Assembly: GCF_900114705.1 (NCBI RefSeq)
Contig: NZ_FOTW01000030.1
Span: forward strand, 1-64,000
Source: Rugamonas rubra
GTDB lineage: Bacteria; Pseudomonadota; Gammaproteobacteria; Burkholderiales; Burkholderiaceae_D
DNA length: 64,000 nt
Direction: 5' to 3'
A program made the position numbers and the translations under genes. A model generated the notes under the pieces. It was not told where the DNA came from and searched no databases. It saw only the letters and a list, made by a program, of their open reading frames with translations. Below are positions 25,621-51,396 of this stretch, piece by piece (within the stretch, counting starts at the first letter, position 1; each line of letters begins with the position of its first letter).

Positions 25621-26883
25621 CTAGTCCTTGCTGCCGGCTGCCCAGCGCAGGCCGAAGCTGTATTTGCGGTCCATCAGCTCGTGCAGGGTCGTGCGCCCCT
25701 GCGGCACGATGTAGTCGACCAGCTTGGTCACCTGCAGCTTGCCGCCGACGTTCTCCAACATGGCGATGGCGCACATCATCTGGTCGCCGCCCTGGTCCAG
25801 GCGCACCTCGATGGGCGGCTGGTCGGGCACGTTGACGGTGACCACGCCGTCGGTGGCGGCCCAGTTCGCCACGCCCTCGTAGATGAAGGCGAAGATCAGC
25901 GCCCGCTTGATCTCGCCGAAATGGGCGCCGTTGATGCTCAGGTTCTCGCCGTCCACCGAGGCACCGGTGCGGTCGTCGGCGGCCAATTGGATGTAGGGCC
26001 TGCCGGCGAAGTCGCCGAAGCTACCGCCCAGCGCCTGTACCACGCCGGGCGTGCCGTCGGCCATCTCGAACATGCAGCCCAGGTCCAGGTCGATGCCGCG
26101 CGGCGCGCCCGCGCCCGCGCCGGTCAGGCGGGCGAAGAAGCCCGGCTTTTCCGCCGCCACCGGCGCGGCGCCGGCCGCGCGGTTCCAGTTCAGGTTGACG
26201 TGGATGCGGCCGAAGCCGGCCGCCGAGGTCTTCTCCAGCGAGATCTTGTCGCCGCGCTTCTCCAGCGTGACCTTCGACAGCGACACCTTCGGCGCGGCCG
26301 CCGGGGCCGGGGCCGCAGCGGGGGCCGCAGCCGGGGACGCAGCGGGGACGGCGGCCGGCGCCGGCGCGGTGGCGCCGCTCTCGCTGCCGCCGAAATGCGC
26401 CAGCAGCGCCGCCAGGCCGCCGTTGAAGCCCTGCCCCACCGCGCCGAAGCGCCACACGCCGTCCTTGCGGTACACCTCGGCGAGGATGACCGCCTTCTCG
26501 TCCTGGAAGTCGCCGCCGGCCAGGGCGAACTGCGCCACGCCGCCCAGCGTCACGCTGCCGCCGCTGATGGCGCGCATGCTGGCGCCGCCGTCGATGGCGG
26601 CGGTGAACACCAGCTTGCAGATCGACTCGGGCAGCGCCGCCAGATTCACGGCGAAGCTGACCCGCTCGCCGCCGAGGCGCAGCGTGACCGCATCGCCCGG
26701 ACTGGCCAGCTGGTTGTAGAACACCATGTAGCGGTCGTCGGACAGGCGCTCGGCGCTGTCGAGGCCGAAGCAGGACACGTCGGCCAGCGCGCCGCCGATG
26801 CGCAGGTCGACGTCGACGTTGAAGGACAGGCCGCAATCGAGGTCGCTGAGCTTGCTCTTTTGTCCGCGCGAGAATTGTTTCAT
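25621..26883 (-). CDS. terA: TerA-like double TerD-domain protein (420 aa)
   Basis: The first TerD-type domain (about residues 1-175) includes DVSCFGLDSAERLSDDRYMV and VYRKDGVWRFGAVGQGFNGG. It is joined by an Ala/Pro-rich linker (about 185-205) to a second, more divergent TerD-like domain (about 210-415) with IDLDLGCMFEMADG. This is the TerA architecture. TerD-superfamily domains bind Ca2+ through Asp clusters and take part in tellurite, phage and envelope-stress resistance. AGGAA lies 8 bp before the ATG at 26883; the frame upstream of it overlaps another gene. It is the last gene of the minus-strand ter operon. Confidence 0.9.
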   Translation of the reverse strand: MKQFSRGQKSKLSDLDCGLSFNVDVDLRIGGALADVSCFGLDSAERLSDDRYMVFYNQLASPGDAVTLRLGGERVSFAVNLAALPESICKLVFTAAIDGGASMRAISGGSVTLGGVAQFALAGGDFQDEKAVILAEVYRKDGVWRFGAVGQGFNGGLAALLAHFGGSESGATAPAPAAVPAASPAAAPAAAPAPAAAPKVSLSKVTLEKRGDKISLEKTSAAGFGRIHVNLNWNRAAGAAPVAAEKPGFFARLTGAGAGAPRGIDLDLGCMFEMADGTPGVVQALGGSFGDFAGRPYIQLAADDRTGASVDGENLSINGAHFGEIKRALIFAFIYEGVANWAATDGVVTVNVPDQPPIEVRLDQGGDQMMCAIAMLENVGGKLQVTKLVDYIVPQGRTTLHELMDRKYSFGLRWAAGSKD

Positions 26884-26927
26884 ACGAAGGTTCCTATCGA
26901 AGTTGGGGGGACCGTCCGCAGCGCCGC

Positions 26928-27845
26928 TCAGTGCGGGCTGTTCAGGACGGTGGGGGGAAGCTGGTTTTGCTCCGGATGGGAACCGAACAGGCGCGAGCGC
27001 GCCAGCGTGCTCTCGGCCCAGGCGCGGTGGGTCGCCACCTCGCACATCGACTGGTCCATGGCGAACACCGCCGGGCTGTCCGGATGCAGGATGGCGGCGG
27101 CGGCGCGCAGGTCGCCGGCCGAGACGCGGTAGTGGCTCTCGATGGCGGCGATCTGGCTGGGGTGGATGGCGGTCTTGCCGACCATGCCGTAGGCCAGGTC
27201 CTCGGCCACCTCCTCGCTGAGCAGCTCGGGCAGATCCAGATGCTCGAACACCGGCGCCGTCAAGGCGAAGCCGTGCGGCCGGAAGGTGGTCACCAGGCGG
27301 GCGATCACCGGGCCGAGCGGCGTGCGGTACAGCGTCATGTTGCGCGGCCGGCGCAGGCCCAGCAGCGACAGCAGGTCGTTGCCGCCGATACGCAGCGCCA
27401 GCACCCGTTCGCGGATGCCGGGCGCCTCGATCAGCCGGCGCAGCGCGCGCATCTCGTCGTCGTCGAACACCTCGGCCGTCTCCAGCGTCGGCATCAGCAC
27501 GTGGCGGGTGTCGCGCACCAGCTTGCAGTAGGCGGCCAGGTTGTACTGGGTCGCCTTGGGGATGACGAAGCCGGTCAGCTTGTCGGCGCCGGGCATGGCC
27601 AGCACGCGCGCCATCACCTCCTGGTTGCGCACGCGGACGAAGCGCTCGGCCGTGCTGGCCGCCGGCATATGCGCCAGCACCAGCGACAGGTTGAACATGG
27701 CGTAGCTCAGCTCGCGCTCGGCGACGGCGTCCTCGGTGCACATGATGAGCGAACGCACATGGGCCAGCCGGGTGCCGCTGGCCACCTCCATCAAATGCTT
27801 GTGGGTGGCCGGCACGTAGAGCGAGGCCCCGATTGGTTTAACCAT
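26928..27845 (-). CDS. Citrate-lyase-beta/HpcH-type aldolase of the Ter module (305 aa)
   Basis: A TIM-barrel CitE-like protein of the HpcH/HpaI family: SLYVPATHKHLMEVASG at the N-terminus, RVRNQE (substrate Arg), ALRIGGNDLLSLLGL and GKTAIHPSQI. CitE-like proteins cleave or form C-C bonds in CoA esters or related acids. Members of this subfamily are a standing part of Ter operons, where they are predicted to help make a nucleoside-like metabolite. The ATG at 27845 is preferred over one three codons earlier because AGGA lies 9 bp upstream. It overlaps the preceding gene's end by 8 bp, so the two are translationally coupled. Confidence 0.87.
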   Translation of the reverse strand: MVKPIGASLYVPATHKHLMEVASGTRLAHVRSLIMCTEDAVAERELSYAMFNLSLVLAHMPAASTAERFVRVRNQEVMARVLAMPGADKLTGFVIPKATQYNLAAYCKLVRDTRHVLMPTLETAEVFDDDEMRALRRLIEAPGIRERVLALRIGGNDLLSLLGLRRPRNMTLYRTPLGPVIARLVTTFRPHGFALTAPVFEHLDLPELLSEEVAEDLAYGMVGKTAIHPSQIAAIESHYRVSAGDLRAAAAILHPDSPAVFAMDQSMCEVATHRAWAESTLARSRLFGSHPEQNQLPPTVLNSPH

Positions 27846-29016
27846 CTGAGACATTCCTGATGATGGAGACCGCCTGGTAAGGCAGCTCGGGGTCGATATG
27901 CACCGGCACGTTCTTTTCACGTGCCAGCACCAGCAGGTGGGCGACGTCGGCGCTGGCCGCGTCGCGCACGATCAGGCGTTCCGGCGTGCGCCGCAGCAGC
28001 ACGCGGGTGGCCTCGCCCAGGCCGGGCTTGATCAGGTTGCGGTCGGCGATGGCGTGCTCGCGCATGGCCTCGGCCATGTAGCGGCGCGACACCCGCGCCG
28101 CCTCGTCGCGCGCCGCCAAGGTGGCCGCCAGGGCAGCCGCCTCGCCTGCCGCGCCACGGCTCGCGCCGTGGGTCGCGCCAAAAGGCGCGCCAACTGCCGC
28201 AGCGCTTGTCGCCTCGCCCGCCGCCAGCGCCAGCGCACGCTCGACCAGACTGTCGGCGAACGCGCGCGACTGGTCCTGCGGTTCGAACTCGGCGTAGTAG
28301 ACGCAGCCGTGGAAGTCGGCCGGGCCGATGGACTGGTTCAGGATCGAGCGGCTGACCAGGCCCGAGACGGTGGCGTTGAGGATGCTCGAGGGGATCAGGT
28401 AGTCGTCGTGGGCGGCGGCGCAGGCGGCCACCCCGGCCAGGTCGGACAGGACGTACAGGCCGCTGTCGATGGCGCAGCCGTGGCTGGCGTTGAAGTCGGC
28501 CATGCTGGCCTGCAGTTCGCCGCTGATGACGCCCTTGCCGGTCCAGCCGTCGACGAAGACGATGGACTCGGCGGCGTGGCCGCGCGCCAGGATGTACTCC
28601 AGCGCCACCTGGTCGATGCCACGGTCGCGGATGATGGACAGCGAATAGTGCGCCGTCTCGCGGCCGAACACCCCGCCCAGCAAACGCTTGAGCACCACGC
28701 CGACCGGCGTGCCGGCGCGCGCCAGCGACACCAGCGTCACCGGGCCGCTGCGGCGTTGGGCGATCAGGCCGGCCAGCGCCAGGCAGTCGCCGGCCATGCG
28801 CTCCAGGTTGGCGGCGCAGGCGGCGCGGAACACCTCCAGATAGCGCGCCGACGGCAGCGACTCGCGCGACAGCATCTCGCTGTAATGGCGCCGGCCGGAC
28901 TGGATCAGCCGCTCCTTGTCCGGCACGTCGACGAAGGAGGCCAGCGCCAGCGGCTTGAGCAGGAACTGCACGTCGTCGCCGTGGTAGCTGCCGCTGAAGT
29001 TCATCGCGGCGTTCAT
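27838..29016 (-). CDS. StiP-type protein with phosphoribosyltransferase-like and PELOTA domains (392 aa)
   Basis: This is the long Ter-operon protein often labelled cysteine protease StiP. The N-terminal and central part (about residues 40-270) has a PRTase-like core with VTLVSLARAGTPVGVVLKR and SIVFVDGWTGKGVISGEL, the PRPP-loop-like segment. After an Ala-rich insert (about 275-310), the C-terminal about 80 residues match the PELOTA RNA-binding domain (RNLIKPGLGEATRVLLRR...). It probably uses or makes a ribosylated intermediate. GGAG lies 6 bp before the ATG at 29016. It overlaps the HAD gene by 4 bp and the CitE-like gene by 8 bp. Confidence 0.85.
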   Translation of the reverse strand: MNAAMNFSGSYHGDDVQFLLKPLALASFVDVPDKERLIQSGRRHYSEMLSRESLPSARYLEVFRAACAANLERMAGDCLALAGLIAQRRSGPVTLVSLARAGTPVGVVLKRLLGGVFGRETAHYSLSIIRDRGIDQVALEYILARGHAAESIVFVDGWTGKGVISGELQASMADFNASHGCAIDSGLYVLSDLAGVAACAAAHDDYLIPSSILNATVSGLVSRSILNQSIGPADFHGCVYYAEFEPQDQSRAFADSLVERALALAAGEATSAAAVGAPFGATHGASRGAAGEAAALAATLAARDEAARVSRRYMAEAMREHAIADRNLIKPGLGEATRVLLRRTPERLIVRDAASADVAHLLVLAREKNVPVHIDPELPYQAVSIIRNVSDG

Positions 29017-29765
29017 AGCGGCTCCAGGGCCAGCCCGGCCAGCTGGCTGCCGCGCGGCACGATGGCGTAGTCGCAGGCGGCCATGAAGCGGGCGTCGGAG
29101 CGGCTGTCGCCCATGCCGAAGGTGAGCAGCGCGCCGTGCTCGGCGCGCAGGCGCTCGGTTACGTAGGCCACCGCGTGCGACTTGTTGAGCGCGTTGGGCA
29201 GCACCGCCAGGTTGTTGCCGTTGCGGTGGATGAAGTAGTCGTGGCCGCGCGCCTCCAGCCACGGCCGCACCACCTCGCGCTCGATCGGCTCGAGCCGTTC
29301 GGCGATCTTGTCGGCGTCCTTGAACACCAGGTAGAACGGGATGGAGAAGTCCTCGATGACGCGGGCGCGGCCGCGCTGGCCGGCCGCCGCCACGTAGGCG
29401 TCGACCAGGCCGGCCAGCTCGGCCAGGCCCTCCTGCGCCGCCAACATCAGCGGACGCATGCGTTCCAGCCAGTCGCGGTCGGCGCTGCCGTCGGGCAACA
29501 GCACCACGCCGCCGTAGTTGATCACGGCGTAGCTGTGGAAGTCCAGCCGCACGCGGCGGAAGGCGTCCAGGTTGCGCGCCGTGGCCGGGATCACCGTCAT
29601 ACCGTCTTGCATGAAGTCGAACAGGGCGCGCTGGCCGGCCGTGCTGAAGGAGCAGGCGACGCCGTCCTTGAGCACGGCGGCCGTTTGCAGGTCGTCGCGG
29701 TCGACACACTTCTCCAGCGATTGGAACAGCGTGTCGTCGAGATCAGCGAACAGGAATTTCTTCAA
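29013..29765 (-). CDS. HAD-superfamily phosphatase of the Ter module (250 aa)
   Basis: The HAD nucleophile motif FADLDDTLFQS is at the very N-terminus. Motif II is PATARN, and motif IV is FGMGDSRSDARFM near residue 222, as in Cof/trehalose-phosphatase-type phosphatases. It should dephosphorylate a sugar- or nucleotide-like phosphate in the Ter metabolite pathway. The start is taken as TTG at 29765 (reading MKKFLFADLDD) because the HAD motif begins here and GAGG lies 6 bp upstream. It overlaps the PRTase gene by 23 bp and the StiP gene by 4 bp. Confidence 0.85.
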   Translation of the reverse strand: MKKFLFADLDDTLFQSLEKCVDRDDLQTAAVLKDGVACSFSTAGQRALFDFMQDGMTVIPATARNLDAFRRVRLDFHSYAVINYGGVVLLPDGSADRDWLERMRPLMLAAQEGLAELAGLVDAYVAAAGQRGRARVIEDFSIPFYLVFKDADKIAERLEPIEREVVRPWLEARGHDYFIHRNGNNLAVLPNALNKSHAVAYVTERLRAEHGALLTFGMGDSRSDARFMAACDYAIVPRGSQLAGLALEPL

Positions 29766-30945
29766 CCAGGGCCTCACTAATAAAATGGAAAAGACGCGCG
29801 TCGAGCAGCGCGGCAAGCTCGAACAACGCCGCGTTGGGCGGCGTCTCGTGGCAGATGAAAACGTGGTCGTACTGGCCGGGGCTGACGTTGTAGAGGAAGT
29901 TGGGCACGCCCTCGCCGTAGTTGTCGGCGAACTCCAGCACCTGCCCCACCGCGCCCCAGCGCAAAATGGGCGAGCGGGTGGTCGACTGGATCGCCAGGTC
30001 GACGCCGTCGCGCGCCAGCGCGGCGCCCAGCACATAGGCGGCGTGCATGAACTCGCCGGTGCCCAGCACCAGCACACTCTGGCCGGCGCCAATGTCGGCC
30101 GCCAGGCGCTCCACCAGCGCGTCCGGCAGGCGCAGCGGCGCGCTGCGGCCGCGCCGGCCGAAGCTGGCGCTGGCGCCGCGCTCGGCGTCGGCGTCGAAGC
30201 GCTGCGCTGGCGCCGCGCTCGAGGCCACCGCGCCCGGCGCGAACTGGTAGCCGCCGCGCAGGCAGGCGCCCAGGGTGAGCGGCAGGCCGCAGCGCTGCGC
30301 CAGCGCGGCGCCGCCCTGCTCGCCCATGAAATTGGTGATCACCGCCAGATGCAAATGGGCGATGTCCGGCTGCACCTGGCGGCAGGCGTTGAGCAGGTTG
30401 ACGAAGGTGTTGCCGGTGCTGGCCTCGTCGTCGATCAACACCAGCGAGCGCATGCCGGTGAACAGCGCGCGCTGGGCCTCGTCCTCCGGCCAATGCAGGA
30501 ACTGGCGCGGCGCGTGGCTGTGCGCCTCCTCGAACTCGATCAGCGGCGCGGCGCCGACGCGGTAGCGGGTGGTGTGCAGGAACAGCGCCGGCTGGCCCGG
30601 ATGGTCGCGCTGCCAGGCCTCGAACACGCCCTGGCCCAGGCCGATGCCGGTCTCGGCCAGCGAGATGAACACCACCGGACCGGGCAGCTCGGGCACGCCG
30701 GCGGCCAGGCTGGCGTGGATCTGCGCCATGCGCTGCGGCGTCACCGGCCAGTGCTTGCCCAGCACCTTGCTGAGGAAGAGGAAGCCGCGCTTGGCGTTGT
30801 CGCGCGCGGCGTAGCCGAGCAGGCTGTCGGGCGCGAACTCGCTGCTGTCGACGCGCAGTTGCAGCGTGCCGGTCGGCAGCTCCACCTGCCAGCTGCCGGC
30901 GTGCGGCGCGGCAGCGCTCGCGGCGCCGTCCACGGCGCCGCTCAT
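29743..30945 (-). CDS. Phosphoribosyltransferase with C-terminal TRSP domain (400 aa)
   Basis: The N-terminal PRTase fold (about residues 30-250) has the PRPP-binding loop SLVLIDDEASTGNTFVNLL. The C-terminal part (about 260-400) begins VLVLGTGEFMHAAYVLGAAL and contains QSTTRSPI, the motif that names the TRSP domain of Ter-operon PRTases. It probably attaches or removes a ribose-phosphate on a base-like substrate. The ATG overlaps the upstream ATP-grasp stop by 4 bp, indicating tight coupling. All five enzymes from ATP-grasp to CitE-like overlap, which is strong evidence for one pathway. Confidence 0.88.
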   Translation of the reverse strand: MSGAVDGAASAAAPHAGSWQVELPTGTLQLRVDSSEFAPDSLLGYAARDNAKRGFLFLSKVLGKHWPVTPQRMAQIHASLAAGVPELPGPVVFISLAETGIGLGQGVFEAWQRDHPGQPALFLHTTRYRVGAAPLIEFEEAHSHAPRQFLHWPEDEAQRALFTGMRSLVLIDDEASTGNTFVNLLNACRQVQPDIAHLHLAVITNFMGEQGGAALAQRCGLPLTLGACLRGGYQFAPGAVASSAAPAQRFDADAERGASASFGRRGRSAPLRLPDALVERLAADIGAGQSVLVLGTGEFMHAAYVLGAALARDGVDLAIQSTTRSPILRWGAVGQVLEFADNYGEGVPNFLYNVSPGQYDHVFICHETPPNAALFELAALLDARLFHFISEALVEEIPVR

Positions 30946-31970
30946 GCCAGCTCCAGGGCGCAGCCCTGTTCACCGACGCGCATGCCGTCGCGCACCGCCG
31001 CCGGCACCAGCCCGGCGTGGCCGTCGACGAAGCCGCGCAGCGCGATGTAGGGCAGGTTCGGCCCGGCCAGGCAGGCCATGCCGATGCCGCCCGACATGCG
31101 CGGATTGATCTCCAGCAGGCGCAGGCCGTCGCGGCCCTCGCGGAACTGGACGTTGAACATGCCGTTCAGGCCGAAGTCGGCGGCCAGCTTGGCGCAGGCG
31201 GCGACGATGTCGGGCCGCATGTCGATCAGCTGGCCGTGGCCGGGCTGCGGCAGCTTTTTGCGCGCCACCATGCAGGCCAGGCGCCCTTCGTCGCCGACGC
31301 AGTCGACGCTGTATTCGGGACCGTCGAGGTACTCCATCAGCAACATGCTGCGGAACTGGCCCAGTTCGGCCAGGCCGCGGCGCAGGTCGGCCAGGCCGAT
31401 GCGGTAGCTGGCGCCGGCCAGCAGCAGCGCGGCGCTGCTGCGCTGCTCGTCGAGCACGGCAAAGCCCAGGCCGTAGACCGAACGCGAGGGCTTGACACAC
31501 AGCGTGTCGTGGCGGGCGCGCAGCTCGGCGTGGGCGGCGTCGAACTGGGCGATGTCGCTGAACTCGCGGAACTGCGGCGCCGGCGCCTGCGGCAACTCGA
31601 CCGCCGCGTAGAAGGCGGCCTTGTCGTCGATCAGGTCGAGTTGCGCCGGCAGGGCCGCGCTGAGCAGGCGCGTGCCCTGCTCGAGGAAGCGGCCGCGCGC
31701 CGCGCTCAGCACGGCGGCGTGCTTGCTCGGCATGAACACGTCGACCCGCTGCTCGCGGCAGAAGGCCAGGCACCAGTCGACATACTCGGCCGCCGCCAGC
31801 CCGCTCGGCTCGACGTGGAAGGCGTCGGCCGCCCCGGCCGCCGCCGAATGGGCGTGGGGGTGGCTGTAAATGGTATGGAAACGGCCCTCGAGGTCGCCCT
31901 CGCGGATCAACTTGAGTGCCGTCGCCACCGACGAAAAAGCACTATTCAACCAAACTCGCCAAACTTGCAT
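30942..31970 (-). CDS. ATP-grasp ligase of the Ter module (342 aa)
   Basis: An ATP-grasp fold with ATP-binding CVKPSRSVYGLGFAVLD, and the Mg2+-site region LLLMEYLDGPEYSVDCVGDE and LRLLEINPRMSGGIGMA (E and N ligands). It should join an acid to an amine or thiol with ATP hydrolysis. ATP-grasp enzymes stand with PRTase, HAD, PELOTA and CitE-like proteins in Ter operons, where a nucleoside-like metabolite is predicted. AAGGAT precedes the ATG at 31970, and an earlier in-frame Met at 32060 is inside terZ and rejected. It lies 8 bp downstream of terZ. Confidence 0.88.
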   Translation of the reverse strand: MQVWRVWLNSAFSSVATALKLIREGDLEGRFHTIYSHPHAHSAAAGAADAFHVEPSGLAAAEYVDWCLAFCREQRVDVFMPSKHAAVLSAARGRFLEQGTRLLSAALPAQLDLIDDKAAFYAAVELPQAPAPQFREFSDIAQFDAAHAELRARHDTLCVKPSRSVYGLGFAVLDEQRSSAALLLAGASYRIGLADLRRGLAELGQFRSMLLMEYLDGPEYSVDCVGDEGRLACMVARKKLPQPGHGQLIDMRPDIVAACAKLAADFGLNGMFNVQFREGRDGLRLLEINPRMSGGIGMACLAGPNLPYIALRGFVDGHAGLVPAAVRDGMRVGEQGCALELA

Positions 31971-31978
31971 CGATATCC

Positions 31979-32560
31979 TTACAGGTGCGGGGTGATCTGC
32001 GGCAGCAGGTCGTTGAAGGTACGGCCGCTGCCGGCCTCGCCGATGGCGTGCATCTTCCACTCGCCGTTGTGGCGGTAGACCTTGGCCATGATCTGCGCGG
32101 TGTGGCCGCCGGTCATGGTCAGGTTGAAGCGCGCCACCTCCTTGTTGTTGGAGGCGTCGACCAGGCGGCAGGTGGCGTTCTCGATCTGCGAGAAGTCCTG
32201 GCCGGTGAAGCTGTTGACGGTGAACACCAGGCTCTTGACGTTGGCCGGCACGCGCCCCAGGTCGACGGCGATCTGCTCGTCGTCGCCGTCGCCGGCGCCG
32301 GTGCGGTTGTCGCCGGTGTGGACGATCGAGCCGTCGCGCGAGCCGAGCTGGCGGAACCAGACGGTGTCGAGCAGGCTGCCCTGCTCGTCGAACAGCAGGC
32401 AGGAGGCGTCCAGGTCAATCTCCGGCGCCGAGCGGCCGAAGCCAAGGAAACCCTTCGACTTCACGGCGTCCCAGCCGAGGCCCATGATGATCTTGCCCAA
32501 GCCGGTGCCGGCTTCCTTGTCCAACGAGATTTTCTGACCCTTGCTCAAATTAACGCTCAT
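31979..32560 (-). CDS. terZ: TerZ-like TerD-family protein (193 aa)
   Basis: A single TerD domain fills the protein. The Asp-rich Ca2+ sites are IDLDASCLLFDEQG and [14 protein letters not shown]. The TerZ-type variations are VWFRQLGSRDGSIVHTGDN, TFTVNSFTGQDF-like FTVNSFTGQDF and the ending GRTFNDLLPQI. TerZ is a cytosolic Ca2+-binding protein of tellurite/phage-inhibition systems. AGGAGG lies 6 bp before the ATG, the strongest ribosome site in the operon. It separates the TerD/AIM24 genes from the enzyme genes. Confidence 0.92.
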   Translation of the reverse strand: MSVNLSKGQKISLDKEAGTGLGKIIMGLGWDAVKSKGFLGFGRSAPEIDLDASCLLFDEQGSLLDTVWFRQLGSRDGSIVHTGDNRTGAGDGDDEQIAVDLGRVPANVKSLVFTVNSFTGQDFSQIENATCRLVDASNNKEVARFNLTMTGGHTAQIMAKVYRHNGEWKMHAIGEAGSGRTFNDLLPQITPHL

Positions 32561-32644
32561 GCCATCCTCCTGTGATCCAACGTGAAAAATTCTGTCGCGC
32601 CGCGCCCGTCGCCGGGCCGGCGCCCATGATACTCGTGCGCCGGC

Positions 32645-33361: not shown

Positions 33362-33397
33362 CGCTGCCCTCCCTCAAAAAGTGTGGTCCAGGCCCGC

Positions 33398-34720: not shown

Positions 34721-34867
34721 GGCCGCACCGCGCGCTTCAGGCCGGTGCTGAGGCCGAGGGCTGAGGCACCGGCAATCGGGATTCTCTTACTGTCCGACAA
34801 TCTCTCGACGGCGGCGCGGCCGCTTGGTGTCTCTGCCATGGTGTGCTTTCATTGGCGGTAAAGTGAG

Positions 34868-34921
34868 AACCGGGAGGCGCAGGCCTCCCGGTTGGTGAAC
34901 CGGCCGCCCTGCGGCGGCCGG
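34868..34921 (-). terminator. Tandem hairpins between terD and terF-like genes
   Basis: Hairpin 1 (34868-34893) has arms AACCGGGAGGC and GCCTCCCGGTT around a 4-nt loop. Hairpin 2 (34900-34921) has arms CCGGCCGCC and GGCGGCCGG around CTGC. Neither has a clear U-run on the minus strand, so they more likely act as attenuator, RNA-stability or processing structures than as a full stop. Confidence 0.65.
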
Positions 34922-34943
34922 CGCGGTGCTGCCGCCGGAACGA

Positions 34944-42413: not shown

Positions 42414-42447
42414 AGCGGCGGCGCCGGGCCGGCGCCGCCATCGCATA

Positions 42448-42467
42448 GCGCCGGCCGCCGCCGGCGC
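42448..42467 (+). terminator. GC hairpin between the two kinase genes
   Basis: GCGCCGGC and GCCGGCGC form an 8-bp stem around CGCC within a 110-bp gap. A short pyrimidine run (GCTTTCCCC) follows. It could be a weak attenuator; evidence is limited. Confidence 0.4.
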
Positions 42468-42523
42468 GCTTTCCCCATCCCCCCGCTAGCCCGCCGCGAC
42501 AGAACAGCGCCACCGGGGGCCGC

Positions 42524-43570: not shown

Positions 43571-46338
43571 TGGCGGCGCCGATCCGCTCCACGCCGCGCG
43601 CATCCAAACCGACGCGCCACCCGCTCACCTCGCCGGATCGGCTGGCTGCGCTGGGCCGACTGGCCACACAGAGCATTCTGGCCGCATTGGGCCGACTGCT
43701 TGCGCTGGTCCGGCTGCCGCTGCCGGCCGGCGCGCCGGCCCCAGCATCGGCGCGGATCGGCGGACGGCTACCACTATCCTGGCTGTCTGGCGCTTTGGGC
43801 GGCATGGCCACCTTGGCGCGGCGCCACGCCGCCATAGCGGCCACCGTCGCCCTGCTCCTGCTGCTCTGCGCCCTGCAAGGCTTGGCCTTGTGGCGCGCGC
43901 CGCCGGCCTGGCATCCCGCCGCCGTGACGGTGCGCCTGGCGCCGGGCGAATCGATCACGCTGGGCCAGCGCGAACTGGCCGCGCCGCAGGCCGACAAGGC
44001 GCATCTGACCCTGCGGCGCGACCCGCGCGACGGCTGGATGCTGCGCAACCTCAGCGCCGCCAAGCAGGTGGTGCTACAGGGCGAGGCCGGCGAGCAGCGC
44101 ATGGGCAGCGTGGCGCTGCGCGGCGGCCAGCGCTTCCAGGTCGGCCACCACCGCTTCGACGTGCTGTCGGCCAGCGCCGACGAGGTGGCCTTCAGCCGCG
44201 ACGGCGTGCAATGGCGCTACGACGGCGCCGTGCTGTACCGCGACGGCCACGCCCTGCCCGCCTGCGCCGACGCCCACCTGGCCGCGCGCGCGCTGGCGCT
44301 ATGGAACCGTTGGCTGCCACGGCCGCTGAGCATCGCCCGCGCCCTCGCCTTCGGCGGCAACGTCCACTGCGACAACCGGCTCGGGCTGGCCGGCGTCACG
44401 TCCGGCGCCGCCCTGCTGGCGCGCGCCGGCGCGGACGGCCCGCTGCGCGGCCAGCTGCAACTGTCGGCCGGCAGCCCGGACGGCGAGCGCGGCGCCGTGC
44501 TGCTGCTTGACGGCGCGCGGCAAACCGACCTGCGCCAGCAGGAGCTGCCGCTGGCCGGCGTGCACGCCATCATCGCCGGCCACAGCCGCTTGCTGCTCAG
44601 CCAGCAGGAGGAACAACTGAACCTGCAACCGACCCGCCGCGTCACGCTGTTCAACGTGGCCGAGCTCAAGTTGCCGGCACAGGTGGACTGGCAATGGCGC
44701 CCGCGCGCGCTGTGGCACAACCCGGCGTCCAGCGCCTTGTGGGCCGGCTTGGCGCTGTGCTTGGCGCTGCTGGCCGCGACGGCCCTGCTGGCGGCGCGCG
44801 GCGTGTCGACGTCCAAGCTGGCGCCGTCCGTTCGCCTGGCGCCAAGCACAGCGCAAGGCCGGACCGGCGCCGACGACGCCATCCCGCCGGCCAGACAGGC
44901 CAGCGGCCAAGGCCAGATCCACGCCGGCCCCTGGCGCACCCGCCTCACCTGGTTCGGCACCATCGTCCTGCTGCTGTGCGGCCTGGCAGCGCTGTTGCTG
45001 CAACGCGCCGGCAGCACGCCGAGCGCGGCCTGCTCGCTGCTGCTGGCCAGCGGCGCCCTGCTCTGGTGGCTGGCCCTGCCCGGCCGCCTGACGCTGGCCA
45101 GCGCCGCCGCCGTGATCCTGCTGGCGGCCGGCCTGCTGTCCCAACTCGACCTCGGCCTGGGCGCCAACGAGGTCTCCTGGCTGCGCTACTACCAAAAAAG
45201 CTGCGCCCTGCTGGCCATCGGCGCCGGCCTGGGCGGCCTATGGCGCCTGTGGGCGGCGCAGCGCGGCGCCCTGCTGCCGCAGCGCGCCACCGAATGGGCG
45301 CTGGCGGTGTTCGCCGCCGTGGCGCTGGCCGGCCTGGCCGCCGAGGTGCTGTGGGGCGACGAGACCGGCGTGTTCGACCTGCAGCCGGTGGAGCTGGCCA
45401 AGCTGGCCCTGACCTGCCTCACCGCCCACTGCCTGGCGCTGCGGCTGGGCTGGCAGAGCGGCCCGCGCCGGCTGGCCGAACACGGCGCCCGCTGGCTGCG
45501 CCTGATCGCGCCGGCGCTGCTGTTCCTCGCCCTGCTCGGCCTGGCGCTGGTGCAGGTGGACGACTACTCGCCGCTGATCCTGCTCCTGCTGTGGAGCGCG
45601 GCGATGATGCTGGCCTACGGCCTGGCCAGCGGCAACCGCCTGCTGGTGGCGCTGCCGCTGCTGGCGGCGCTGCTGGCGGCGGCCGCCATCGCCTGGCTGC
45701 GCCTGGCCAGCATCGATGTCGACGCCGACTCGGCCGGGCAATGGCCGCAAAACGGCGGCTTCTACGCCGACCGCTTCCAGGTCTGGCTGGCGCCGGCGCG
45801 CCATCCGCACACCGGCCAACAGCTGCTGCTGGGCGCCCGCGCCATCGCCGAGGGCGGCTGGTGGGGCGGCGACGGCCTGCTCGGCCTGCGCTCGCTGGGC
45901 CAGGGCGCCGGCGCCGCGCTGCGCATCCCGGCGGTGCAGGACGACTTCGCGCCGGCCTTCTTCCTCAACCGCCACGGCCTGCTCGGCGCGCTGCTGCTGT
46001 GGACCGCCCAGGCGGCGCTGCTGGCCGGCCTGCTGTGGACCGCCGCGCGCAGCCACGCCGCCGGCGCGGCGCCGCGCGGCTTCCGCCAGGCCTGGGCCGG
46101 CCGCTTCCGCTACTTCACCCTGTGCGGCGGCGCCGCGCTGCTGTTCGGCCACCTGCTGCTGTCCTGGGGCACCAACCTGGCGATCTTCCCCATCATGGGC
46201 CAACCGATGAGCTTCCTCTCGGCCGGCGGCAGCCACCTGCTGTTTTTCCTGCTCCCCCTGCTCTCGTTCGCTGCGATCAGCGCGCAATCTTTAGAGGAGA
46301 ATGAACCATGCCGATCTATGTCCAACACGAAGTGCTAG
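43567..46338 (+). CDS. SEDS (FtsW/RodA-like) membrane protein with N-terminal FHA-like domain (923 aa)
   Basis: Order of parts: cytosolic/basic N-terminus; a membrane helix (about 88-109); an FHA-like beta-domain (about 119-235, VTVRLAPGESITLGQRELA then MLRNLSAAKQVVL); a further helix near 395; then a SEDS core (about 460-915). SEDS signatures are DLQPVELAKLAL, VQDDFAPAFFLNRHGLLG (carries the catalytic Asp) and IMGQPMSFLSAGGSHL. SEDS proteins polymerise glycan strands of peptidoglycan. A fusion with an FHA-like domain is unusual: FHA domains bind phosphothreonine, so the adjacent kinase may control it. It overlaps the upstream kinase by 4 bp and the next gene by 31 bp. Confidence 0.85.
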   Translation: MMAAPIRSTPRASKPTRHPLTSPDRLAALGRLATQSILAALGRLLALVRLPLPAGAPAPASARIGGRLPLSWLSGALGGMATLARRHAAIAATVALLLLLCALQGLALWRAPPAWHPAAVTVRLAPGESITLGQRELAAPQADKAHLTLRRDPRDGWMLRNLSAAKQVVLQGEAGEQRMGSVALRGGQRFQVGHHRFDVLSASADEVAFSRDGVQWRYDGAVLYRDGHALPACADAHLAARALALWNRWLPRPLSIARALAFGGNVHCDNRLGLAGVTSGAALLARAGADGPLRGQLQLSAGSPDGERGAVLLLDGARQTDLRQQELPLAGVHAIIAGHSRLLLSQQEEQLNLQPTRRVTLFNVAELKLPAQVDWQWRPRALWHNPASSALWAGLALCLALLAATALLAARGVSTSKLAPSVRLAPSTAQGRTGADDAIPPARQASGQGQIHAGPWRTRLTWFGTIVLLLCGLAALLLQRAGSTPSAACSLLLASGALLWWLALPGRLTLASAAAVILLAAGLLSQLDLGLGANEVSWLRYYQKSCALLAIGAGLGGLWRLWAAQRGALLPQRATEWALAVFAAVALAGLAAEVLWGDETGVFDLQPVELAKLALTCLTAHCLALRLGWQSGPRRLAEHGARWLRLIAPALLFLALLGLALVQVDDYSPLILLLLWSAAMMLAYGLASGNRLLVALPLLAALLAAAAIAWLRLASIDVDADSAGQWPQNGGFYADRFQVWLAPARHPHTGQQLLLGARAIAEGGWWGGDGLLGLRSLGQGAGAALRIPAVQDDFAPAFFLNRHGLLGALLLWTAQAALLAGLLWTAARSHAAGAAPRGFRQAWAGRFRYFTLCGGAALLFGHLLLSWGTNLAIFPIMGQPMSFLSAGGSHLLFFLLPLLSFAAISAQSLEENEPCRSMSNTKC

Positions 46339-48077
46339 GGCGCATCCCGGACGTCTTCAACGCCGAGGCGATCTGGCAGGCGCCCGGGCTGGCGCTGTTC
46401 TCGCGCCGCCCGCTGCTGCGCGACCTGCTCGAACGCAGCCCGCGCGAGCACAAGGGCCGCGCCGCCACGCGCTGCTTCTCCCACGTCACGCTGATGCTGC
46501 CGCAAGAAGAGGTCGACGACGACTACCACCTGACGCGCGGCGCCCGCGCCCGCGACCTGGCGCAGACCCTGACCGCGCTGCACCAGAAGGACTTCGGCGA
46601 CCTGCTCGGCGCCGACCAGGTGCGCTACGACGTGGTCGGCGCCGAAGCCGTCGAGCCGGGCCAGATCGAGGTCAAGTTCGGCCACGCCGTCTACCTGCCG
46701 GCGGCCGACGAAAAAATCCTCTACAACGTCAGCGTCTCGCGCGACAGCGCGGTGTGGCACCCGGTCTGCCCGATCTACCCCAACCAGCGCCTGGCCCTGA
46801 TCGGCGGCGACGACGGCGAGGCCAGCTTCGCCGCCGCCGGCTGGCCCTTCGGCGCCGACGGTGCAGTCCTCATCATCAACGACGGCCCGGACAGCCCGCC
46901 GGCCGTGCAGATGCGGCCCAAGGACGCCTTCGACTGCCGCTACGACCCGCGCGGCGGCCACTACACCATCAAGTCCAAACACGGCGGCGACGCCCGCCTG
47001 CTGCTCAAGATCGGCCGCGTCGGCACGGCCGCCGACGCCGGCGGCGCCGAACAGTTCCAGTCCATTCCAGCGCTGGCGGCTGGCGCCACCCAGGCCGGCA
47101 CAATGCTTGGCGCATCGCTAGGCACATCAATTGGTGCATCGAGCGGCGCATCGATCAACGCCGCTATCAACGCCGCCTTCCCGGCCTCCACCGGCGCCAA
47201 CGCCAAGCGCGCCACCATCGGCGGCGCTCCCGCAGCGCCGCAGCTCGCGCCGAACGCCGCGATGGTGATGCCGGCGCCGCACGCCGCCAAGGCCGGCGCC
47301 GGCCCCGCCGTGTGGCACAGTCGCAGCGGCGGGCCGGCCCCGTTCGACCAGACCGCCGTGCCGGCCAGCCACCGCCCGCTCAACCAGCCGGGCGAGAGCG
47401 ACGCCACCTACGCCCCGCTGGCGCAGCAGCGCGTCAGCCTGGTGGCGCTGGCGCTGCCGCGCCTGAGCCGTTACCGCGACACCGGCGCCCGCGCGCTGGA
47501 GCTGCCGTTCAACCAGGCGCTGACCCTGGGCGGCGCCGGCGCGCCGGCCATCAGCTTCGTCGTCGACGCCGCCGACCAGCTGCACGCCTGCACCGCCGCC
47601 GGCCGCCAGCGCATCGCCGCGCCGGCCAGCTTCACCCCGGTCGACGGCCGCGCCATCGCCCTGCTGGCCGCCGCCCCCGCCATGGCCGAGCGCTACTGCG
47701 CCCTACTCAGCCTGCCGCAGCCGGTGTGCGCCGCCGTCGCCAGCGGCGCGCGCTTCAACTTCGGCCGCGGCAGCGCCATGCTGGCCGCGCTGCGCGTGCT
47801 CGACTCGCCCCGCTTCCTGCAACGCGAGGACGGCAATGGCGACGCGGCCGGCGCCAGCGCCGACCGCATCGGCCTGTCGCGCAACGCCTTCAGCTTCGAG
47901 GCCTCGGCGCAGGGCTTCAAGATCGGCCGGCTGGCCGCCACCCAGGCGCTGTACCACCTCGACGAGCAGCTGGCCTTCGTCGCCACCATCGGCGAAGCCA
48001 GCGCCGACGCGCCCTACCTGCTGCCGCCCGGCCACCACATGGTCGCCGGCCACTACGTGTTGCGCTTCGATGCCTGA
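46308..48077 (+). CDS. Unknown 589-aa protein, possibly DUF3662/FhaA-like at the N-terminus
   Basis: No family is certain. The N-terminal about 120 residues (FSHVTLMLPQEEVDDDYHL, then ARDLAQTLTALHQKDFGDLL and VEPGQIEVKFG) resemble the DUF3662 domain of actinobacterial FhaA in pattern. The middle (about 260-340) is Ala/Gly-rich and repetitive (LGASLGTSIGASSGASIN), and the C-terminal about 180 residues could be FHA-like (SFVVDAADQLHACTA, FNFGRGSAML). There is no signal peptide or membrane helix. GAGGAG lies 8 bp before the ATG, inside the end of the SEDS gene. It probably works with the SEDS and phosphatase partners. Confidence 0.75.
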   Translation: MPIYVQHEVLGRIPDVFNAEAIWQAPGLALFSRRPLLRDLLERSPREHKGRAATRCFSHVTLMLPQEEVDDDYHLTRGARARDLAQTLTALHQKDFGDLLGADQVRYDVVGAEAVEPGQIEVKFGHAVYLPAADEKILYNVSVSRDSAVWHPVCPIYPNQRLALIGGDDGEASFAAAGWPFGADGAVLIINDGPDSPPAVQMRPKDAFDCRYDPRGGHYTIKSKHGGDARLLLKIGRVGTAADAGGAEQFQSIPALAAGATQAGTMLGASLGTSIGASSGASINAAINAAFPASTGANAKRATIGGAPAAPQLAPNAAMVMPAPHAAKAGAGPAVWHSRSGGPAPFDQTAVPASHRPLNQPGESDATYAPLAQQRVSLVALALPRLSRYRDTGARALELPFNQALTLGGAGAPAISFVVDAADQLHACTAAGRQRIAAPASFTPVDGRAIALLAAAPAMAERYCALLSLPQPVCAAVASGARFNFGRGSAMLAALRVLDSPRFLQREDGNGDAAGASADRIGLSRNAFSFEASAQGFKIGRLAATQALYHLDEQLAFVATIGEASADAPYLLPPGHHMVAGHYVLRFDA

Positions 48078-48091
48078 ACCGGGAACCCACC

Positions 48092-48622
48092 ATGCCCACC
48101 GCCCTGCCCATCGACTGGTCCTACGAACGGCTCTACAGCGCCGGCGCCTTCGCGCTCGGCCTGCTGTTGACGCTGTTCCTGGCGGCCTACCTGACGCCAC
48201 GGCGCTGGTGGCAACGCCCCAACGCGCGCGCCCTGCTGATCCTCGTCGTCGGCGCCTGGGGTTTCGGCAGCCTGATCCTGCTCGCCACGCGCGGCGGCGC
48301 CAGCACGCCGGCGCTTGCCGCCGCGACCAGCACACCGACGCCGTCCCCCTCATCGACGACGCGGGTCGCGGCCACCGCGCCGCCCACTACCACCCCGGCC
48401 GGCGGGCCGATCGCCGGCCGGCCCTTCCAGGTGCACCGCGACCTGAACCTGCGCCAGGCGGCCGGCGTGCAGACGGCGCGCCTGCTGACGGTGCCGGCCG
48501 GCGCCAGCGTCACGCCGACCGGCCGGCGCGACGGCGACTGGTGGCAGGTGCGCGCCCGCGTCGGCGGCGAGGATAGAGTCGGCTGGGCCAACAGCCTGTG
48601 GCTGCGGAGTAGCGGTGAATGA
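48092..48622 (+). CDS. Membrane protein with C-terminal SH3 domain (176 aa)
   Basis: Two membrane helices (about residues 13-32 and 43-65, AFALGLLLTLFLAAYL and ALLILVVGAWGFGSLILLA) precede a Pro/Thr-rich linker. A bacterial SH3 domain (about 110-172) follows, with DLNLRQAAGVQTARLLTVPA and GDWWQVRARVGGEDRVGWAN. Bacterial SH3 domains often bind cell-wall peptides, which fits a partner role for the SEDS protein. Two helices would place N-terminus and SH3 domain on the same side, presumably the periplasm; the topology is uncertain. It starts 14 bp after the 589-aa protein. Confidence 0.85.
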   Translation: MPTALPIDWSYERLYSAGAFALGLLLTLFLAAYLTPRRWWQRPNARALLILVVGAWGFGSLILLATRGGASTPALAAATSTPTPSPSSTTRVAATAPPTTTPAGGPIAGRPFQVHRDLNLRQAAGVQTARLLTVPAGASVTPTGRRDGDWWQVRARVGGEDRVGWANSLWLRSSGE

Positions 48623-49706
48623 AAAAACATACTCCAGCGCGATGGCCGCGCTGCGCGGTTTTTCGGCTAAGCTGTGGCCATCCGCCACGACAGGACGCGC
48701 GCCGCCCACGATGACCTCACTGACCGACACCCTGGCCTTCGGCCCCGGCCTCGACATCGCCGCCCGCAGCGACGCCAGCATCAGCAAGCTGCAGGTGCCC
48801 GAGAACCAGGACAACATCCTGCTGATCGACGGGCGCGGCCGCGCCGTCTTCCTGCGCGACCAGGCCGAGTGCAGCGCGCAGCTGGCCGACTGGCCGGCCG
48901 GCCACGTGCGCCTGGCCGTGATGGACGGCATGGGCGGCCACGGCAACGGCCGCCAGGCCGCCGAGGCGGTGGCCCACGGCCTGCTCGGCGTGCCCGCCTG
49001 CGCCACGCTCGAACAACTGGCCACCCGCCTCGACGCGCTGCACGGCGCGCTGCAAAGCCACTTCCGCAGCGCCACCGACCACGACGACTTCCGCCGCCCC
49101 GGCACCACGCTGACCTTGATCGAGATCCCCCCCGGCCAGGCGCCGCTGCTCTACCACGTCGGCGACTCGCGGCTCTACGAGATCACCCCCGAGGCCGCCG
49201 AGCCGCTGACGGTGGACCACGTGCCGGCCACCGCCTTCGCCCTGCACGGCCTGCTCGGCGCGCAGGAATGGTGGCAGCAGGTGCACGGCGAGCACCGCGC
49301 GCAGATCTCGCAGGCCTTCATCCTCGGCAACGCCTTCGCCAATCCGCAGGTGCTCGACGACGGCCTGTGCGCCTTGACTTCGGCGCGCCTGCCGACCTTC
49401 CTGCGCCACCTGGCCGACCGCCGCGCGCTGGTGCCGCGCCCCGGCGCCGTCTACCTGCTGGCCACCGACGGCTTTTGGGCCTGCGCCAAGCCGCAGGCCT
49501 GGACCGAGCGCTGGCCCGAACTGCTGGCGCGGCGCGGGCAAGACGCCAGCGCCGTGCTCGGCCAATTGTTCGACGAGTTCGCCCAGCGGCCGCCGCCTGG
49601 CTTGCATATCGATAACGTCAGCGCCATCGTCCTGCGTTTCGCCGCGCCGCCGAATGTTGACGAAACGGCACTACCGAACGCCCGTTTCCAGCCACTTTCA
49701 TCATGA
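48615..49706 (+). CDS. PP2C-type protein phosphatase 2 (about 363 aa)
   Basis: The PP2C signatures are complete: ENQDNILLID, VMDGMGGHGNGRQAAE (D104), HVGDSRLYEI, LLATDGFWA and DNVSAIVLRF. It should be a Mn/Mg-dependent Ser/Thr phosphatase opposing the locus kinases. The start is taken as GTG at 48615, overlapping the SH3 gene stop by 8 bp with GGAG 5 bp upstream; an ATG at 48711 closer to the domain has no ribosome site. No signal peptide or membrane helix. It is the second PP2C of the locus, differing in length and detail from the 634-aa protein. Confidence 0.9.
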   Translation: MNEKTYSSAMAALRGFSAKLWPSATTGRAPPTMTSLTDTLAFGPGLDIAARSDASISKLQVPENQDNILLIDGRGRAVFLRDQAECSAQLADWPAGHVRLAVMDGMGGHGNGRQAAEAVAHGLLGVPACATLEQLATRLDALHGALQSHFRSATDHDDFRRPGTTLTLIEIPPGQAPLLYHVGDSRLYEITPEAAEPLTVDHVPATAFALHGLLGAQEWWQQVHGEHRAQISQAFILGNAFANPQVLDDGLCALTSARLPTFLRHLADRRALVPRPGAVYLLATDGFWACAKPQAWTERWPELLARRGQDASAVLGQLFDEFAQRPPPGLHIDNVSAIVLRFAAPPNVDETALPNARFQPLSS

Positions 49707-49830
49707 CAGATGTTGCGCGGGCGGCCGGAATGCTGTCATTGCGAAAATATATGCAGTCCGATTGAGCGGCGGATTGCCAAAGACCGGCAAAAACGCATAA
49801 ACTCTTGTTTATCTCGTCGGTCAGAACGTC

Positions 49831-51396
49831 ATGAAAAAATGCAGTAACCCGGATCACCCGCACTGCACGTACTGGGTCATGCCTGGGGAGCCCGCCTGCG
49901 CGGGCGGCCACGACCAGCCAGCGGCACGCACCGCCCCGGTCACCAGCTACGATCTGCTCAGCGCATTGCGCTCCGCCCGCGCCGGCAACCCGGTCGCGGC
50001 GCGCCCGGCCGTCCCGACCACATTGACCGAAGCAAGCGCCGCCGCTCCCTCCCCCGCCGGCTACGCCCGACCCATGCAGCGCGCCCAGTCCGAGCGCCCG
50101 CAGCTGCACATCAGCGGCTTCGACCCGCGCGCCGCCGGCGGCCGCCAGACCTTGAAAATGGAGTTGCGCGGCATGCCCGAAGGCTGCGCGCCACAACTGA
50201 CGCTGCAACTGCAGTCCGAATTGATCCCCGAAGGCGCCGCCCGCCAGCAGTTCGTCCGCTCCACCAGCGGCGACTGGCGCCCCGTCTTCGTCGAATTCTC
50301 CTCGCGCGGCAAGGAGCACGGCCAGTACCAGATCAGCATGGAGCTGCTCAGCCGCCACGCCGCGCTGGCCGCGCGCACCTGGGTCTGCACCTTCGTCATC
50401 CTGGTGCCCCGGCTTGACGCCACCCTGACCGAAATCCACCGCATCTTCCTCAGCACGCACAAGAACGTGCGCGTGATGGCCGACGACGCCTCGATCGCCC
50501 GCGTCAACGCCCAGGGCGGCGCCAGCATGGACATCGACGTCACCGCCCGCAACGCCGGCATCGCCCACCTCGACCTGGGCGCGCCGCAGGGCAAGGTCGA
50601 CATGGGCTTTTCCACCATCGCCTGGGACGAGGACCTGATCGAGATCGACATGCCGGCCTCGGCCGCGCTACACCCCCACCCCAGCCGCGCCGCCAGCCTG
50701 GTCAACGCCGCGCCGGAGGCCGGCGCGCAGCGCCAGATCCGCCTGTTCGCGCTCGACGAGTGCGTGTTCGGCCGCTTCGAGCTGGTCGACCCAGAGGCCG
50801 ACGTTCTGCTCAGCCACTACGGCGACGCCGGCCAGGACAACAACGGCCTGACGCGCCGCCTGTCCGGCCGCCACGCCGTGATCCGCCGCACCGGCCACGG
50901 CTTCGAGATCGAGGACGTGTCGCGCTACGGCATCTTGTTGGACGGCGTGTGGCCAGGCAAGCACAAGCCGACCGCGCTGCGGCTCGGCATGCGCATCGAA
51001 CTGAGCGCCAGCATCAAGGGCATCGTCGTGCTGTCGGTGTCGGCCATCATGCCGCACGGCGTGGTCCTACACCGCATCGACCAGGGCGCGCAGGCCGAAT
51101 GCTTCTACCTGCTGGCGCCGGAGACCCACCCCGGCTACCCGATGGCGCCCTTCGCCACCACGCCCAATGCCGCCGGCCTGCCGCTGCTGCTGCACCGCGA
51201 CGGCGGCTTCTGGCACCTCGACCAGCTCAGCGGCAAGGAGACCGCGCTGGCGCCCGCCACCGCCCTCACCCAGCTCAGCCGCATGGCCAAGCACAAGCGC
51301 TTCGCCAGCGAGCCGTATCCCGAGCACTGGATCATCCGCACCGGCGCCAGCGATCTCTACAGCACCGTCGGCGCGCACGACCTGTCGACCGCCTAG
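49831..51396 (+). CDS. FHA-domain protein with N-terminal Cys cluster (521 aa)
   Basis: An N-terminal cysteine/histidine cluster (CSNPDHPHC...CAGGH; C4, C12, C24) may bind zinc. A central Ig-like beta-rich part (about residues 90-230) and an FHA domain (about 305-395) follow: VFGRFELVDPEADVLLSHYG, RRLSGRHAVIRR (the phosphothreonine-binding SGRH) and FEIEDVSRYGILLDG. The C-terminal about 130 residues are unassigned. It probably reads phosphothreonines made by the kinase encoded upstream. It lies 124 bp after the PP2C gene, with its own possible promoter, and closes the ter/kinase locus. Confidence 0.9.
   Translation: MKKCSNPDHPHCTYWVMPGEPACAGGHDQPAARTAPVTSYDLLSALRSARAGNPVAARPAVPTTLTEASAAAPSPAGYARPMQRAQSERPQLHISGFDPRAAGGRQTLKMELRGMPEGCAPQLTLQLQSELIPEGAARQQFVRSTSGDWRPVFVEFSSRGKEHGQYQISMELLSRHAALAARTWVCTFVILVPRLDATLTEIHRIFLSTHKNVRVMADDASIARVNAQGGASMDIDVTARNAGIAHLDLGAPQGKVDMGFSTIAWDEDLIEIDMPASAALHPHPSRAASLVNAAPEAGAQRQIRLFALDECVFGRFELVDPEADVLLSHYGDAGQDNNGLTRRLSGRHAVIRRTGHGFEIEDVSRYGILLDGVWPGKHKPTALRLGMRIELSASIKGIVVLSVSAIMPHGVVLHRIDQGAQAECFYLLAPETHPGYPMAPFATTPNAAGLPLLLHRDGGFWHLDQLSGKETALAPATALTQLSRMAKHKRFASEPYPEHWIIRTGASDLYSTVGAHDLSTA

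Follow-up and report, generated by a model that had tools for sequence, protein, structure and literature searches.

A ter/TerY-P island beside a resident kinase-SEDS operon in Rugamonas rubra, and a putative accessory SEDS-bPBP wall synthase

The DNA analysed was a stretch of 64,000 nucleotides from Rugamonas rubra, a member of the Oxalobacteraceae (assembly GCF_900114705.1, contig NZ_FOTW01000030.1, positions 1 to 64,000; hereafter the window). Between positions 25621 and 51396 it carries a set of ter genes and, directly after them, genes for a Ser/Thr kinase, a SEDS glycosyltransferase, FHA proteins and a PP2C-like phosphatase. A sequence-only reading had taken all of these to be a single unit with two divergent arms. 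The comparisons described below indicate that they are very probably two separate, unrelated gene sets that have become juxtaposed, a ter/TerY-P island and an older resident kinase/SEDS operon.

Gene content of the island and the resident operon

The ter/TerY-P island extends from 25621 to 42413 and contains the following genes.

25621-26883, minus: TerD-domain protein (PF02342)
26928-27920, minus: CitE-like C-C bond lyase (PF15617)
27838-29709, minus: StiP-PELOTA protein (PF11202 at residues 240-488, PF15608 at residues 541-619); true start near 29016
29013-29780, minus: HAD-like protein with a DLDDT motif, recognised by direct reading; start position provisional
29743-30945, minus: PRTase-TRSP (PF15609, PF12500)
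30942-32060, minus: ATP-grasp protein, start uncertain (PF15632)
31979-32560, minus: TerD (PF02342)
32645-33361, minus: AIM24 (PF01987)
33398-34720, minus: TerD with TerF-type vWA (PF10138, PF02342); without a separate match in sister strain G012
34944-35519, minus: TerD (PF02342)
35602-36180, minus: TerD (PF02342)
36509-37147, plus: TerY-like vWA protein (PF00092)
37161-37904, plus: TerY-like vWA protein (PF00092), true start probably near 37263
37938-38984, plus: TerY with TerY_C (PF15616)
38988-40901, plus: PP2C of the TerY-P triad (PF13672)
40914-42413, plus: kinase with zinc-ribbon-like cysteines at its C terminus (PF00069)

The resident operon follows on the plus strand and is listed with the two resident genes to the left of the island.

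42414-42523, plus: right island junction and resident-operon leader, with the CCCCCCGCTAG motif at 42480
42524-43570, plus: Ser/Thr kinase (PF00069)
43567-46338, plus: FHA-fold domain fused to a SEDS glycosyltransferase, 923 amino acids (PF01098)
46308-48077, plus: protein with an FHA-like C-terminal domain (Foldseek FHA fold), without a Pfam family
48083-48622, plus: protein with two transmembrane segments and an SH3 domain (PF08239)
48615-49706, plus: PP2C-like phosphatase (weak PF13672, NF033484)
49831-51396, plus: FHA protein with conserved Cys/His at its N terminus (PF00498)
22701-24161, minus: M28 peptidase, conserved left neighbour (PF04389)
24013-25473, plus: glycine-zipper protein (uncertain start), the resident gene that borders the island on its left (PF05433/PF13441)

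The genes called for both arms in the sequence-only reading were largely borne out by Pfam scans of the window proteins. Five TerD-domain proteins, AIM24 and the ATP-grasp, PRTase-TRSP, StiP-PELOTA and CitE-like proteins were all found on the minus strand, and the plus strand has two kinases, the SEDS protein, the SH3 protein and the FHA protein. The enzyme module (ATP-grasp/PRTase/HAD/StiP/PELOTA/CitE) is complete, its HAD member having been recognised by direct reading alone. The inventory required some correction, as the CitE-like gene and the TerD gene at 25621-26883 are distinct genes, and the open reading frame of StiP is over-long, with the HAD-like frame lying upstream of StiP. The three proposed TerY proteins are indeed vWA proteins, but TerY_C was found in just one of them. 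Both proposed PP2C phosphatases are present, although the second matches weakly (E 8.8e-4 and 19.3 bits for PF13672, whose cut-off is 24; 45 bits against 230 for the NCBIfam Stp1 model NF033484). Two proteins with FHA or FHA-like domains had been counted, and this proved too few: three such domains were found, one fused to the SEDS protein, one in the 46308-48077 protein and one in the 49831-51396 protein.

The island is of a known type, as had been proposed for its TerY-P triad and its enzyme module. TerY_C, PP2C and kinase are encoded by adjacent genes (PF15616, PF13672, PF00069), and this triad is described in PMC11090510. Nearly the same gene order is found on plasmid 1 of Aromatoleum aromaticum EbN1, with TerD, HpcH/CitE, StiP, PRTase, ATP-grasp, TerD, TIGR00266 and two TerD genes in the minus arm and vWA proteins, TerY_C, PP2C and kinase in the plus arm. 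Extra genes on the EbN1 plasmid are PgpA, TerC, TerB and a TerD placed among the vWA genes, whereas the window island has the TerD-TerF-vWA protein and neither TerC nor TerB among the island genes scanned with Pfam. TerC-family genes lie elsewhere in the genome; TerC and TerB are often present in ter islands and were not treated here as strictly defining. Comparable ter/TerY-P islands are carried by enterobacterial plasmids, and the ter kinase had matches in 2341 plasmid records, with identities of 60-80% in 2314. The CxxxxC and CPFC pairs at the C terminus of this kinase were read in the sequence and have no Pfam zinc-ribbon match.

In the resident operon, the start of the SEDS gene overlaps the stop of the kinase gene. 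The kinase residues K44, D150 and D169-F-G were invariant in all 11 aligned rows, and no transmembrane segment was found by hydropathy. Against NF033483 the protein scored 67 of 450 bits, from the kinase part alone and without the transmembrane/PASTA architecture of the PknB type. In the 49831-51396 FHA protein, G314-R315 and S345-G-R-H348 were invariant in 12 of 12 rows. The 46308-48077 protein gave Foldseek matches to FHA domains with a probability of 1.00, although the best E value was 3.4e-3.

Insertion of the ter island

Two sets of loci were compared with the window. The congener set consisted of the neighbourhoods of the 34 SEDS-positive congeners other than the window's own, one of which ends at a contig edge. 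The named set comprised the best 80 of 114 relatives found with two short patterns, a procedure that therefore favours close relatives. These belong to Duganella, Massilia, Rugamonas, Pseudoduganella, Janthinobacterium, Telluria, Herbaspirillum, unplaced Oxalobacteraceae and two metagenome-assembled genomes labelled just Pseudomonadota or Burkholderiaceae. The same genomes occur in both sets, and the counts are not additive.

The resident operon (42524-51396) is conserved in the Oxalobacteraceae. By tblastn, the SEDS, FHA-like, SH3 and FHA genes were found in 34 of 34 congener loci and the kinase in 33, and the FHA-like gene came after the SEDS gene in all 34. PP2C was found in 26; in the sister strain tblastn gave just a piece of this gene, which was intact when read. 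In the named set, some of whose loci end at contig edges, the counts out of 80 were SEDS 80, FHA-like 80, kinase 79, SH3 77, FHA 73, M28 72, glycine-zipper 72 and PP2C 70. Beyond this family the SEDS protein is rare, with matches in 3 of 250 genomes of the order (G000, G517, G599) and in 5 of 369 genomes drawn from the class, where just G000 and G151 matched over most of the length. The remaining three (G108, G136, G366) were set aside as weak, covering about 160 positions, as for any SEDS protein. It is common in the family of G151, here called f94 (26 of 39 genomes). A plasmid or phage origin of the SEDS gene was rejected, since 72,556 plasmid and 50,697 phage records gave no match.

The ter genes show a different distribution. 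In a search with the window proteins they were present at one of the 34 congener loci, that of G012, the sister strain, and at one of the 80 named loci, that of Rugamonas sp. CCM 8940, the same strain. The island lies between the glycine-zipper gene and kinase 42524, and in G012 it occupies the identical site, flanked by the same pair of genes, without the TerD-TerF gene. Of the 32 congener loci that could be scored, 23 have these flanking genes no more than 300 bp apart, five have a gap of 301-1000 bp and four a larger one. TerY_C was found in 2 of 60 same-genus genomes and in 2 of the 369 from the class, in contrast to the SEDS protein, which was found in 35 of 36 same-genus genomes. The restriction of the ter genes to one locus in each set, together with the shared site in G012, shows one insertion, shared by two sister strains; an island of ~17 kb was inserted once, in the ancestor of the window strain and this sister. 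No integrase or transposase was recognised by Pfam among the island genes scanned. A palindromic repeat, GGGGTCTGACCCC...GGGGTCAGACCCC, is present at 25565-25600, at the left edge of the island, and a similar GGGGTCAGACCCC precedes the kinase gene in another locus (L046). A repeat of this sort may have aided insertion.

A single two-armed unit was not borne out. The divergent region 36181-36508, taken in the sequence-only reading as shared by both arms, is part of the ter island. The operon that starts with kinase 42524 retains a leader common to congeners. This leader contains the stretch TTTYC...CCCYCCGCTAG (the CCCCCCGCTAG motif), 35-55 bp before the kinase start, in 82 of 94 distinct leaders (window 42470-42523), and it looks like a promoter or operator. 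A conserved RNA hairpin was rejected because RNAalifold gave no pair on the 94 distinct leaders, and the stretch was therefore kept as a DNA motif only. Elsewhere the motif recurred mostly within the coding region of p502, a gene of the second operon described below, with isolated promoter-like placements in L235, L237 and L241; a motif common to both operons was rejected for this reason. The terminator scan listed no terminator between the ter kinase (42413) and kinase 42524, a result compatible with a regulatory effect that the insertion may have in the window strain and its sister.

The SEDS protein and its class B PBP partner

The SEDS protein scored 70.8 bits against PF01098 (FTSW_RODA_SPOVE; cut-off 26.4) and has the QPxE(L/A) and DF motifs. 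Its predicted model (mean pLDDT 72.1) matched RodA and FtsW with Z scores of 16.7-17.9 (RodA 17.9). D793 was invariant in 26 of 26 aligned rows, f94 rows included, and aligns with D297 of Escherichia coli FtsW (hhalign profile alignment, probability 97.6), which is given as the putative catalytic residue in PMC8765783. The protein is below the NCBIfam equivalog cut-offs for FtsW (62.7 of 337.5) and RodA (58.8 of 336.7).

Residues 114-349 of the predicted structure match FHA folds with Z scores of 7.4-8.4, where values below 8 may reflect a common arrangement. This domain is flanked by transmembrane segments at 88-109 and 386-415. The net charge per 100 residues is +15 and +18 in the flanking segments and +2 in the domain. 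From these charges and from counting transmembrane segments back from the SEDS core, the domain is predicted to be probably periplasmic. FHA readers of phosphothreonine have conserved GR and SxxH residues. In the SEDS protein, the Arg of GR was present in 4 of 15 Oxalobacteraceae rows and in 10 of 11 distant rows, and the Ser of SxxH was replaced, mostly by Asp; these residues are thus not conserved within the Oxalobacteraceae, unlike those of the 49831-51396 protein. Given its probable periplasmic location, a role in docking is more likely for this domain than one in reading phosphothreonine.

The sequence-only reading described the cluster as being without a transpeptidase. This is correct for the window but not for the locus, since a profile of six penicillin-binding proteins (PBPs) from G599 and f94 located a full-length class B PBP (bPBP) on the same contig, ~28 kb from the SEDS gene (contig 74718-78191, minus). 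It retains STFK, SLN and KTG. Proteins of this type are ~1,100-1,150 amino acids long, with one N-terminal transmembrane segment, and their transpeptidase domain is preceded by a very long region. Against the curated PBP2 model the score was 42.9 of 455, and nine transpeptidase matches were found in the genome. The PBP was present in 35 of 60 relatives, all of the same genus (35 of 36), and these are exactly the SEDS-positive genomes. The two genes share a contig in 33 genomes, in all of them at a distance of 13.4-28.5 kb (median 17.0), and are split between contigs in G017 and G019.

The PBP gene belongs to a second operon, convergent with the SEDS operon, that lies beyond the window at contig 65246-78191. 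Of the 35 congeners 12 were sampled, and all 12 have the order pirin, kinase-FGE-sulfatase, zinc-ribbon protein, p403, p245, p502, PBP, on the opposite strand from the SEDS operon. The window itself contains the pirin gene and the stretch that precedes it.

62905-63849, minus: pirin (PF02678)
52615-62813, strand not assigned: segment separating FHA from pirin here, absent from a typical congener (Pfam)

This stretch has an insertion-like content (Sel1/TonB_C protein, FecR, TonB-dependent receptor, esterase, ParA-like ATPase and a HEPN-domain gene). In congeners pirin is close to FHA, while ~11 kb of unrelated genes separate them here, hence the SEDS-PBP distance of the window strain is the largest of the 33. 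No Pfam match was obtained for p502, p245, p403 or p423. It was also observed that p423 may not be a gene and that the open reading frame p490 is out of frame, the actual gene reading MTHQPSTPAD... Searches of PDB sequences with the zinc-ribbon protein and with the FHA profile gave no match. The kinase-FGE-sulfatase gene (L202:4447-6783, contig 65246-67582) encodes a Ser/Thr kinase fused to an FGE-sulfatase domain; it is conserved beside the zinc-ribbon coiled-coil protein (L202:6807-9125) and is kept even where SEDS and PBP are absent.

The congener G009, rated 100% complete, lacks SEDS and PBP genome-wide. In a 39.8-kb region (G009:C20:80000-119800; L247, L248) the genes for the M28, glycine-zipper, FHA, pirin, kinase-FGE and zinc-ribbon proteins are retained in their usual order, and within it there was no match for kinase 42524, SEDS, FHA-like, SH3, PP2C, p403, p245, p502 or PBP. 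As 35 of 36 genomes have both SEDS and PBP, this absence was deduced to be a loss. A joint absence from two separate places is as expected of one functional unit, and the SEDS and bPBP arms likely form one. Because it is absent from this complete congener, the SEDS-bPBP pair is accessory. With both arms gone and the intervening genes kept, G009 constitutes a natural deletion pair.

Among the distant relatives, a protein of ~1,050-1,120 amino acids with a transpeptidase domain (PF00905) is encoded next to the SEDS gene or, in G599, next to the kinase gene. PBP-like matches were obtained in 24 of 39 f94 genomes, all within the 26 that are SEDS-positive (Fisher p 1.3e-8, without correction for relatedness), and in 22 of the 24 the two genes are adjacent on one contig. 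Matches to the transpeptidase region were retained in 11 of the 24. In some f94 genomes (e.g. L184, L191) the PBP-like genes are reduced to open frames of 166-393 amino acids beside SEDS. In G599, two caspase-FGE-sulfatase proteins (L183:2264-4417 and 16663-18726) flank the kinase-SEDS-PBP locus.

Proposed function and alternative explanations

Taken together, the best explanation of the whole, with a probability of about 0.6, is an inserted ter island next to an accessory, phosphorylation-gated SEDS-bPBP wall synthase. The SEDS domain would polymerise glycan from a lipid-linked precursor, and the bPBP would cross-link it. Recruitment or activation of the pair would depend on a reversible phospho-switch made up of the soluble kinase, the PP2C and the FHA proteins of the cytosol. 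We favour peptidoglycan as the product. Control of the pair by phosphorylation is favoured to a similar degree, on the basis of the kinase, PP2C and FHA genes in one operon and the conserved catalytic (kinase) or binding (FHA) residues.

Several observations weigh against this explanation. Eight of the 34 congeners have no PP2C gene at the locus. In 13 of the 24 f94 genomes the PBP-like gene keeps just the segment between profile positions 287 and 567, without the transpeptidase, and of six aligned full-length PBPs four retain SxxK, SxN and KTG, with the first two of these motifs gone from the other two proteins, so that cross-linking is not essential to the unit everywhere. The co-occurrence counts take no account of relatedness, and the f94 set includes incomplete draft genomes. 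For the topology of the FHA-fold domain, counts of Lys and Arg in the 15 residues beside the transmembrane ends do not separate the two sides. Finally, the promoter scan gave no sigma-70-like site at the kinase-42524 leader, so a promoter belonging to this operon was deduced from conservation only.

The sequence-only reading proposed that the ter and SEDS/FHA genes are one stress system tying metal or phage stress to peptidoglycan control. Their adjacency, the common direction of the genes from 36509 to 51396, the lack of a listed terminator at the junction and the retention of this junction in two strains would fit such a system. It was judged highly improbable, as the genome-neighbourhood comparison showed that homologous loci do separate the SEDS/FHA genes from ter genes, which are lacking at all but one of the 34 congener loci and all but one of the 80 named loci and occur beside the SEDS operon only in the sister strain. 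The SEDS operon is complete without them, and no such SEDS homologue was found on the 72,556 plasmids, where the ter kinase is common. The resident locus might instead be a conflict or anti-phage system with wall enzymes as effectors, given that the kinases match the PADLOC kinase models PD-T4-6 and mad6, that the second operon has a kinase-FGE-sulfatase gene and that caspase-FGE proteins flank the G599 locus. This too is improbable: the PADLOC matches are to kinase models in general, the SEDS, FHA-like, FHA, zinc-ribbon and PBP proteins had no match, and the locus occupies one conserved chromosomal place rather than variable islands.

A further alternative is that the SEDS-like enzyme polymerises or ligates another envelope glycan, such as O-antigen or capsule, rather than peptidoglycan. 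In its favour, the next Foldseek match after FtsW was the WaaL ligase (7tpg, E 4.2e-3), the scores are far below the FtsW and RodA cut-offs, and some lineages have only the transpeptidase-less PBP stub. This is nevertheless considered unlikely, since the Pfam FTSW_RODA_SPOVE score is above cut-off, the Z scores for RodA/FtsW exceed that for WaaL (11.7), the QPxE(L/A) and DF motifs are present and the PBP partner in the window's genome keeps its three motifs. That the two proteins are the ordinary FtsW/FtsI or RodA/PBP2 pair of the organism agrees with their SEDS and class B PBP families and is otherwise hardly credible, in view of scores far under the curated FtsW, RodA and PBP2 models, the nine transpeptidase matches in the genome and the lack of both genes in G009.

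The accessory SEDS-bPBP synthase was compared with known systems. The proposed resemblance to the actinobacterial cluster, with its gene set pknA/pknB-pstP-rodA-pbpA-fhaA/fhaB, was confirmed, as SEDS, class B PBP, Ser/Thr kinase, PP2C and FHA lie in one chromosomal neighbourhood. In contrast to that cluster, the resident locus consists of two convergent operons, its kinase lacks transmembrane and PASTA segments, its SEDS protein is fused to an FHA-fold domain between transmembrane segments, and it has extra FHA-like, SH3, zinc-ribbon and kinase-FGE proteins. The SEDS fold, the Asp at the catalytic position and the class B PBP motifs are shared with RodA-PBP2 and FtsW-FtsI; the scores below equivalog cut-offs, the very long pre-transpeptidase region of the PBP and the accessory status are not. 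In searches of the open-access literature no paper on a SEDS-FHA-kinase locus in Proteobacteria was among the matches listed, which concern actinobacteria, mycobacteria and Gram-positives. Tentatively, the beta- and gammaproteobacteria may possess a wall synthase class of their own; it would combine SEDS with a built-in periplasmic FHA-fold dock, a giant partner of the class B PBP type and a kinase/PP2C/FHA switch in the cytosol. In f94, where the SEDS active site is retained, a stub partner without the transpeptidase would then allow polymerisation without cross-linking.

The ter linkage, striking in one genome, is a recent insertion and serves as a warning. Control of SEDS-bPBP synthases by Ser/Thr kinases has been studied mainly in Gram-positives and actinobacteria. 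If the proposed synthase is real, kinase control of a dispensable SEDS-bPBP pair could be dissected in the Gram-negative Oxalobacteraceae, and the stub-type PBPs pose the question of whether SEDS needs the transpeptidase or just the rest of its partner.

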